From Haloferax litoreum (GTDB lineage Archaea; Halobacteriota; Halobacteria; Halobacteriales; Haloferacaceae), in NCBI RefSeq assembly GCF_009674605.1, contig NZ_WKJO01000001.1, positions 1,116,001 to 1,180,000 of the forward strand: 64,000 nucleotides of DNA, given 5' to 3'. A program made the translations under genes and the position numbers. Within the stretch, counting starts at the first letter, position 1. Each line of letters begins with the position of its first letter. This document shows, piece by piece, positions 37,585 through 39,890 of this stretch. The notes beneath the pieces are model-generated. The model did not search any database. It was not told the DNA's origin and saw only the letters and a list, made by a program, of their open reading frames with translations.

Positions 37585-38685
37585 ATGGACGAACGTATCT
37601 ACGAGCATGCCGAGGTACTCGTCGATTGGAGCGCACGAATCGAGGCCGGCGACGACGTGGTCGTCTCGGTCGGTGAGGGCGCTCACGACCTCGCTGTCGC
37701 CGTCGCCGAGGCACTCGGTGAACGCGGCGCGAACGTCGTCACGACCTACGCATCAGAAGAAGTTCAGCGCGCGTACCTGCGCGCACACGCCGGCGACTTC
37801 GAACTCCCCGACCACGAACTCGCACTCTACGAGGCGGCCGATTCGGTCCTCTTCCTCGGGGGCACGCGAAACACGGCCACGACGGCAGACGTGCCAACCG
37901 AGACACGACAAGCCTACGGCCGCGCGACTGAGGCGGTTCGCGAGGCCCGTATGGCGACCGACTGGGTTTCGACGGTCCACCCGACGCGCTCGATGGCCCA
38001 ACAGGCCGGTATGTCCTACGAGGAGTACGCCGATTTCGTCTACGATGCCATCCTCCGGGACTGGGAGGCCCTCGCAGACGAGATGGCGAACATGAAAGAG
38101 ATTCTCGACGACGGCTCAGAGGTCCGAATCGTCAAGGAAGACACCGACCTCACGATGTCTATCGAGGGTCGGACAGCGGTCAACTCCGGTGCGTCTGTCG
38201 TCTACGACTCACACAACCTCCCGTCCGGCGAGGTGTTCACCGCACCCGTCGAAGACGCCGTCGAGGGGGAGGTGTTCTTCGACGTGCCGATGACGCTCGA
38301 AGGTCAGCGTGTCGAGAACGTCCACCTCACGTTCGACGGCGGCGAAGTCGTAGACTTCAGCGCGGGGCAGGGTGAAGAGGCACTCGCCGGCATCCTCGAT
38401 ACCGACGAGGGTGCACGCCGTCTCGGAGAACTCGGTATCGGAATGAACCGCGGTATCGACCGCTTTACCGACAGTATCCTCTTCGACGAGAAGATGGGCG
38501 ACACCATCCACCTCGCCGTCGGGCGCGCCTACGACGCCTGTCTCCCCGAGGGTGAAGATGGGAACCAGTCTGCAGTCCACGTAGACATGATAACCGACAT
38601 GAGCGAAGACTCGCGCATCGAAGTCGACGGCGAAGTCGTCCAACGCAACGGGACGTTCCGCTGGGAAGAGGGGTTCGAAGGCTGA
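37585..38685 (+). CDS. M29-family aminopeptidase (leucyl aminopeptidase T-like)
   Basis: This is a 366-residue cytoplasmic metallopeptidase. The C-terminal half carries the M29 pattern: NLPSGEVFTAPVEDAVEGEVFFD near 212 (metal ligand glutamate), ELGIGMNRGIDRFTDSILFDEKMGDTIHLAVGRAY near 283 (glutamate and histidine ligands), and VHVDMITDM near 330 (His and Asp ligands). TTTTTACTG-like TATA sequence at 37556-37565 ends about 20 bases before ATG 37585, so the transcript is probably leaderless. It removes N-terminal residues from peptides in general turnover. Confidence 0.9.
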   Translation: MDERIYEHAEVLVDWSARIEAGDDVVVSVGEGAHDLAVAVAEALGERGANVVTTYASEEVQRAYLRAHAGDFELPDHELALYEAADSVLFLGGTRNTATTADVPTETRQAYGRATEAVREARMATDWVSTVHPTRSMAQQAGMSYEEYADFVYDAILRDWEALADEMANMKEILDDGSEVRIVKEDTDLTMSIEGRTAVNSGASVVYDSHNLPSGEVFTAPVEDAVEGEVFFDVPMTLEGQRVENVHLTFDGGEVVDFSAGQGEEALAGILDTDEGARRLGELGIGMNRGIDRFTDSILFDEKMGDTIHLAVGRAYDACLPEGEDGNQSAVHVDMITDMSEDSRIEVDGEVVQRNGTFRWEEGFEG

Positions 38686-38794: not shown

Positions 38795-39628
38795 ATGACA
38801 CAATCTGGCCGGACGAGGCGGCGGTTCCTTCAACTGGCGGGGAGTGGCACAGTTCTCAGCCTCGCTGGGTGTCTTGGTGGCGGTGGGTCGCAAGAGACTG
38901 AGACGACGACCACCGGGCAGATGACTGAGGAAGAACACGAAGAGGAACGTCCAGAGGGCGTCTCTGAGGAGGAGTTCGAGCGCGGACCGGTCCCAGAGGC
39001 GTATCGGACCGCGTTGTCACAGGCGAACGAGGAGCGTGACCCGGACCGACTGCTCGCGAAGGAGGACGTCCAATTCCAGGAGGCAGACGCAGCGTTCGAG
39101 GCGGGACTCGCCGTCGAAGGGACAGACTGCGGGAACTGTGCGGAGTACATCCCGGACAAGAACGGCGACGGGTTCGGTGCGTGCGCGAAAGTCGAAGGCT
39201 ACGTCGACCCCGAAGACTGGTGCGTCCTCTGGGAGTCTATCGAAGACGCAGAAGCGGAAGCAGAGCAGACGGCGGAAGGAGAAGGACAAGACCACGAGGA
39301 GGAACTCCCGGAAGGCGTCTCCGAAGAGGAGTTCGAGCGCGGACCGGTCCCAGAGGCGTATCGGACCGCGTTGTCACAGGCGAACGAGGAGCGTGACCCG
39401 GACCGCTTGTTCACGAAGGAGGAAGTTCAGTTCCAGGAAGCGAAGGACGCCGTCGCAGCAGGGTTCGCCGACGAAGGCAGCGACTGTGGGAACTGTGCGG
39501 AGTACATCCCGGACAAGAACGGCGACGGGTTCGGGGCGTGCGCGAAAGTCGAGGGGTACATCGACCCCGAAGACTGGTGTGCCGTCTGGGAGTCTATCGA
39601 AGACGCAGAAGCAGAACAAGAGAGCTAA
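38795..39628 (+). CDS. Lipoprotein with two tandem HiPIP-like iron-sulfur domains
   Basis: This is a 277-residue exported protein from ATG 38795. It has a Tat motif (RTRRRFLQ at 6-13) and a lipobox ending SLAGC at Cys26. Two near-identical 119-residue modules follow. Each has four cysteines spaced C-x2-C-x14-C-x12-C (112, 115, 130, 143 and 231, 234, 249, 262) with a DWC-x2-W ending, which fits high-potential iron-sulfur proteins, the soluble carriers of one [4Fe-4S] cluster. A predicted product therefore carries two clusters on one polypeptide. A start at 38756 (fits a TATA-like AATAATAG at 38719-38726) would add 13 residues. It stands alone before a small zinc-ribbon gene on the other strand. 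Confidence 0.8.
   Translation: MTQSGRTRRRFLQLAGSGTVLSLAGCLGGGGSQETETTTTGQMTEEEHEEERPEGVSEEEFERGPVPEAYRTALSQANEERDPDRLLAKEDVQFQEADAAFEAGLAVEGTDCGNCAEYIPDKNGDGFGACAKVEGYVDPEDWCVLWESIEDAEAEAEQTAEGEGQDHEEELPEGVSEEEFERGPVPEAYRTALSQANEERDPDRLFTKEEVQFQEAKDAVAAGFADEGSDCGNCAEYIPDKNGDGFGACAKVEGYIDPEDWCAVWESIEDAEAEQES
38969..39405 (+). repeat. Pair of 80-bp identical direct repeats within the HiPIP gene
   Basis: Bases 38969-39048 and 39326-39405 are identical over 80 positions, offset by 357 bases (119 codons). A second near-perfect block, about 39131-39180 and 39488-39537, has the same offset. Identity at synonymous positions shows a recent in-frame duplication or ongoing gene conversion between the two HiPIP modules. 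Confidence 0.9.
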
Positions 39629-39635
39629 CTCGGAT

Positions 39636-39890
39636 TTACTCTTGAGCCACCCCGATGTGCTTCAGCATCCCGCCACAGCGGGGACACAGTTGTTCGTGGA
39701 CGCCGTGTCCAGAGCGGTAGCCACACGAGACACACTCGTACCACGCCCGTTCGACGAGCGCTTCGGTCGGTCGTTCGACCAGTTCTTCGGGGCGGCGTTC
39801 GGCCAGTTCGGCCGGTTCCGGTTCGACGAGTTCTCTCGACTCCGCTTCCACGAGGTCTGTTGGCTCGCGTGTGGTGATATCGTCAGTCAT
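39636..39890 (-). CDS. Rubrerythrin-like small zinc-ribbon protein
   Basis: This is an 84-residue protein. The C-terminal 35 residues WYECVSCGYRSGHGVHEQLCPRCGGMLKHIG form a rubredoxin-like zinc ribbon with two CxxC pairs 13 residues apart. The N-terminal half is acidic and rich in LVE/ELAERRPEELVER repeats that look disordered or helical. In haloarchaea such proteins are often annotated as rubrerythrin-like domain-containing protein. Its role is unknown. It lies convergent with the HiPIP gene with 7 bases between. Confidence 0.72.
   Translation of the reverse strand: MTDDITTREPTDLVEAESRELVEPEPAELAERRPEELVERPTEALVERAWYECVSCGYRSGHGVHEQLCPRCGGMLKHIGVAQE

Follow-up and report, generated by a model that had tools for sequence, protein, structure and literature searches.

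HiPIPs have been studied as one-cluster bacterial carriers. It is characteristic of the class that the cluster works between the 3+ and 2+ states at a positive potential. In bacteria, ACIII is known as a quinol:cytochrome c/HiPIP oxidoreductase (PMC5928083). For haloarchaea, the relevant section of a review on respiration names halocyanin as one-electron carrier and leaves HiPIP unmentioned (PMC8305020). Our literature search, which covered few subscription journals, returned nothing on haloarchaeal or tandem HiPIPs.

Here we analyze a locus in the window, which is the whole stretch of 64,000 nucleotides of Haloferax litoreum DNA under study. The open reading frame at 38795-39628 on the forward strand encodes a Tat lipoprotein of 277 aa with two HiPIP modules (PF01355). 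We consider it likely that this protein is a tethered two-cluster HiPIP carrier born of a tandem duplication, with gene conversion acting later. The features of the locus are the following:

37618..38685, + strand: M29 aminopeptidase, flanking; neighbor kept in all 15 Haloferax
38795..39628, + strand: two-module HiPIP Tat lipoprotein gene (277 aa); PF01355 twice, Haloferax orthologs
38795..38872, + strand: Tat signal (TRRRFLQ) and lipobox (LAGC, Cys26), from sequence
38873..38950, + strand: Thr/Glu-rich tether from lipid anchor to module 1, from sequence
38951..39244, + strand: HiPIP module 1, 98 aa; cysteines 112, 115, 130, 143
38969..39048, + strand: 80-bp tract read as gene conversion, module 1 as recipient; identical to 39326-39405
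39245..39307, + strand: acidic linker DAEAEAEQTAEGEGQDHEEEL; EQ-TA junction in all three two-module species
39308..39601, + strand: HiPIP module 2, 98 aa; cysteines 231, 234, 249, 262
39326..39405, + strand: matching 80 bp, module 2 as donor
39636..39890, - strand: rubrerythrin-like zinc-ribbon protein (DUF7129), flanking; neighbor kept in Haloferax

Architecture of the protein and identity of its modules

The N-terminus of the protein is formed by the signal MTQSGRTRRRFLQLAGSGTVLSLAGC. It is followed by a Thr/Glu-rich tether, module 1, a 21-residue acidic linker, module 2 and a short acidic tail. The twin-arginine motif, the hydrophobic stretch and the lipobox cysteine are all found in TRRRFLQLAGSGTVLSLAGC and are retained in the Haloferax orthologs; this Tat/lipobox call was made by visual inspection rather than with TatLipo. 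Since Haloferax, an archaeon, has only one membrane, the site can only be the outer side of the cytoplasmic membrane, which corrects the original prediction of a location at the outer membrane face. The combination of Tat signal and lipobox points to export in the folded state and lipid anchoring, here predicted at Cys26. This is the usual haloarchaeal lipoprotein route, and for the majority of haloarchaeal lipoproteins, export by Tat is predicted (PMC2945643).

Both modules contain the four HiPIP cysteines in the spacing CX2C-X14-C-X12-C. The Pfam scan returns two PF01355 stretches, with 33.5 bits for the protein at a cut-off of 22. As single modules, module 2 scores 23.2 alone, while module 1 scores 21.7 in the genome search and 22.1 together with its neighbor, against the same cut-off. 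PF01355 also matches 12/12 related modules scanned, and the domain is already recognized by automatic annotation. When the module profile is compared with PDB sequences, 14 of the 16 matches are HiPIPs, the best being 3h31 at 6.5e-06. AlphaFold models built from a shallow input alignment reached a pLDDT of 53 for the whole protein and of 43 for one module, and Foldseek with the low-confidence whole-protein model (pLDDT 53) gave no match. A HiPIP fold is predicted for both modules from their sequence. Two sets of HiPIP cysteines in one Tat lipoprotein, as originally proposed, are thus found again with PF01355 matching twice, the cysteine spacing and the twin-arginine/lipobox signal.

Age of the duplication and gene conversion between the modules

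In 15 Haloferax genomes the gene is found at the same locus, between the M29 aminopeptidase and the DUF7129 zinc-ribbon/S6e pair. The original prediction had proposed counting HiPIP modules in orthologs, and their copy number does vary. Two modules are present in three species (the window genome G000, G012 and G006), and a single module in the other 12, among them G007. The single-module species are numerous and are close relatives of the two-module ones. The nearest named relative of the window genome in the collection is Haloferax profundi with 95% protein identity. The G012 protein is identical to that of H. profundi, and the flanking genes are 95.3% identical between the window genome and G012/H. 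profundi. An assembly artefact, raised as a possibility at the outset, is ruled out for the two-module structure by its presence in two other Haloferax species with independent assemblies.

The modules form a 300-nt direct repeat whose copies are 87% identical. Both the 119-codon duplication and the exact 80-bp identity described before were recovered: the start-to-start spacing is 357 nt, corresponding to 119 codons, and the exact runs include one of 80 bp (38969-39048 = 39326-39405) and one of 47 bp (39131-39177 = 39488-39534). Modules 1 and 2 differ outside these identical runs: among 111 codons, 18 differences are non-synonymous and 21 are synonymous.

Comparison with H. profundi dates the duplication. 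Module 1 of the window genome is 90.8% identical to module 1 of H. profundi and module 2 is 94.6% identical to its counterpart, while modules 1 and 2 of the window genome share 87.8% with each other. In the module tree, the first modules and the second modules of both species pair as orthologs, with support of 91/91 and 95/91. Orthologous modules are closer to each other than the pair within the window protein, and judged by these comparisons the duplication is shown to be older than the window/H. profundi split. It is probably older than the split of the third species (G006), too. In the module tree, the G006 modules pair with each other and not with their positional counterparts (99/96). The EAEQ-TA linker junction is common to the window genome, G012 and G006, which favors a single duplication with later homogenization in G006 over a second duplication there. 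The two-module gene arose by in-frame tandem duplication of an ancestral Haloferax single module.

The 80-bp run covers 32 consecutive sites identical between the modules out of 96 variable sites, with p = 5e-5, the lowest value attainable with 20,000 shuffles. A run of this length exceeds chance given the overall divergence. Within the tract, we count no differences between module 1 and module 2 of the window genome, 12 between the first modules of window genome and H. profundi, and 5 between the second modules. In the next 88 columns the pattern is reversed, with 25 differences between the window modules and 8 and 6 between the orthologs. The 22 orthology-type sites are concentrated outside the 80-bp tract. 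The motif P-E-E-Y is found in module 1 of H. profundi and in G006, and P-E-A-Y in both window modules and in module 2 of H. profundi, a pattern that sets the direction of conversion as module 2 onto module 1. By its site pattern, module 1 of the window protein is an M1-type module carrying an M2-type segment, and the comparison with orthologs shows that the 80-bp tract was copied from module 2 to module 1 by gene conversion, once the window species and H. profundi had separated. The original prediction of a very recent duplication or gene conversion therefore stands in its second part. A very recent duplication is ruled out by the ortholog identities, the module tree and the tract comparison; the duplication is common to three species and predates the H. 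profundi split. Efficient gene conversion is documented for polyploid H. volcanii (PMC11276520, PMC8223754). The locus adds a clear intragenic case in a genus where this process is known to be efficient.

Two-module HiPIP lipoproteins elsewhere in haloarchaea

PF01355 matches are present in 80 of 392 genomes of the order. In 18 of these 80, belonging to 12 genera and three families, we find a two-module HiPIP lipoprotein with modules 102 residues apart; the pattern used for detection needs both sets of cysteines and would miss degenerate copies. No three-module HiPIP protein was seen in the haloarchaeal multi-module search. In the tree of this older form, the first modules make up one clade (100/99) and the second modules another (100/100). 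All Haloferax modules fall outside both clades and do not belong to the older form, which makes the Haloferax doubling independent of the older one. According to this tree, two-module HiPIP lipoproteins arose at least twice in haloarchaea. The earlier view that HiPIPs are typically single-domain holds for the PDB entries found; among haloarchaea, two-module forms recur. Around the older two-module genes, there are no recurrent neighbors except at a few closely related loci.

In a different history, unequal recombination would have collapsed the older two-module gene into the Haloferax single module, joining the front of module 1 to the back of module 2, followed by later re-doubling. Such a scenario bears only on history and could hold alongside the functional readings discussed below. 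Profile log-odds do favor a front resembling module 1 and a back resembling module 2, and in two same-family genomes the older form lies near homologs of the 2Fe-2S ferredoxin, 6PGD or MATE genes of the window, which suggests an orthologous locus. However, the column-shuffle test gives p values of 0.03-0.14, and the split finds no support in trees built separately from each half of the module: with the back half, Haloferax falls outside both older modules (100/96), while the front half leans otherwise. Full-length AU tests of a Haloferax single module derived from the older double versus one predating it yield p values of 0.46-0.48. A Haloferax module that is a chimera of the older first and second modules is unsupported by the shuffle test and the half-by-half trees, and we regard collapse and re-expansion as decidedly unlikely.

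Function and respiratory context

Between the window genome and H. profundi, dN/dS amounts to 0.04 for module 1 and 0.05 for module 2, and none of the eight cysteines has been lost in the three two-module Haloferax species. From these sequence data, both modules are probably functional, and each would probably bind a cluster. Divergence between the window modules is strongest in the 29 residues before the cysteine core, with dN of 0.20 compared to 0.035 in the core. This pre-core region may serve to shield the cluster or to bind partners. The copies have diverged mainly in this region, and other parts are homogenized by gene conversion. The many closely related single-module species, and the homogenization of the copies by conversion, would also fit a second module that adds nothing specific and is kept because it is harmless, with tandem duplication and conversion as neutral copy-number dynamics of a repeat. 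The low dN/dS in both modules between species and the conservation of all eight cysteines in three species argue against such neutrality, as does the older form, which retains two distinct modules in 18 genomes. We consider this explanation unlikely.

For the tethered two-cluster carrier, which we prefer, each module would be a head that moves independently, held by a flexible acidic tether. The anchored protein would carry electrons one at a time on the outer side of the cytoplasmic membrane. The linker of 21 residues, Glu-rich in the window protein, fits independent heads better than a fixed wire. In such a wire, the modules would be packed with their clusters within tunneling distance, and electrons would be passed along the protein. 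The recurrence of two-module forms, which arose at least twice, would agree with a wire, as would the older form with its modules only 102 residues apart and almost no linker. In Haloferax, however, the linker is not only long and Glu-rich but variable in length (16 residues in G006), the models of module packing are all of low confidence, and 12 of the 15 species manage with one module. We consider a wire quite unlikely. It is also conceivable, although doubtful, that two-cluster forms evolved at least twice to serve a two-center relay from a quinol-oxidizing complex to an outer-face acceptor, with modules tuned to different potentials.

Gene neighbors in this family, among them the M29 peptidase, zinc ribbon and S6e genes of Haloferax, point to no redox partner. 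The role of the window protein as one-electron carrier would follow from its family, in which cupredoxin and NosL fusions and 4Fe-4S/NrfD neighbors of other HiPIPs point to electron transfer. At L088:3725-4489, a HiPIP lipoprotein carries a C-terminal plastocyanin-like (cupredoxin) domain, for which PF00127 scores 19.2 bits, under the cut-off of 21.2; this fusion is a possible two-metal electron carrier. At L042:1189-2130, a HiPIP is fused to NosL, and similar reading frames are present at L055, L059, L062, L067, L070, L084, L089 and L090, with Pfam run on L042 only. The fusion suggests a connection to the delivery of copper or to nitrous oxide reduction. A separate HiPIP subfamily adjoins a Ferredoxin_N/4Fe-4S gene (L111:5980-9580, L066, L078, L085, L088, L095 and L099). 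In Halostagnicola (L111), NrfD lies beside the gene for the HiPIP-adjacent 4Fe-4S protein. The HiPIP and 4Fe-4S/NrfD locus is a candidate for a quinol-oxidizing complex with its own HiPIP. The window genome contains a second, single-module HiPIP at G000:C3:185617-185751 (L001, L032). It adjoins a heavy-metal P-type ATPase, as on the H. mediterranei plasmid pHME505.

We also considered that HiPIP replaces complex III. By hand count, petB is present in 60 of the 80 HiPIP-bearing genomes and in 291 of 392 overall, showing no association. NrfD is found in 7/7 older-form genomes without petB (G392, G177, G332, G101, G254, G278 and G081) versus 6 of 16 checked with petB, and NrfD complexes possibly stand in for complex III. 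Conserved lipid-anchored, sometimes two-cluster HiPIPs represent an added candidate carrier for haloarchaeal respiratory chains, and the occurrence of one or two modules among close Haloferax species offers a ready natural genetic comparison.

The closest known relative is the single-module HiPIP lipoprotein of the 12 other Haloferax species. It is the ortholog of the window protein with the same signal, module and neighbors, and differs in having one module only. The older two-module form (L035/L082, L093, L094, L102-L105 and others) is likewise a Tat lipoprotein with two HiPIP modules, but its modules are spaced by 102 residues with almost no linker, are fixed as strongly diverged M1 and M2 types, and have a separate origin. 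With solved HiPIPs (3h31, 1pih, 2hip, 1hpi), the window modules share the four-cysteine core and the aromatic positions around the last cysteine. In contrast to these, the window protein has two modules per chain and an N-terminal lipid anchor, and its modules add a conserved stretch of ~45 residues before the Pfam-matched part. They also carry D-W-C where the solved HiPIPs from the PDB profile search have G-[YW]-C. Halocyanin (PMC8305020) is similar as a proposed membrane-anchored one-electron carrier serving terminal oxidases, but it is a blue copper protein with a fold unrelated to HiPIP. The haloarchaeal HiPIP and 4Fe-4S/NrfD locus recalls the bacterial ACIII complex (PMC5928083).
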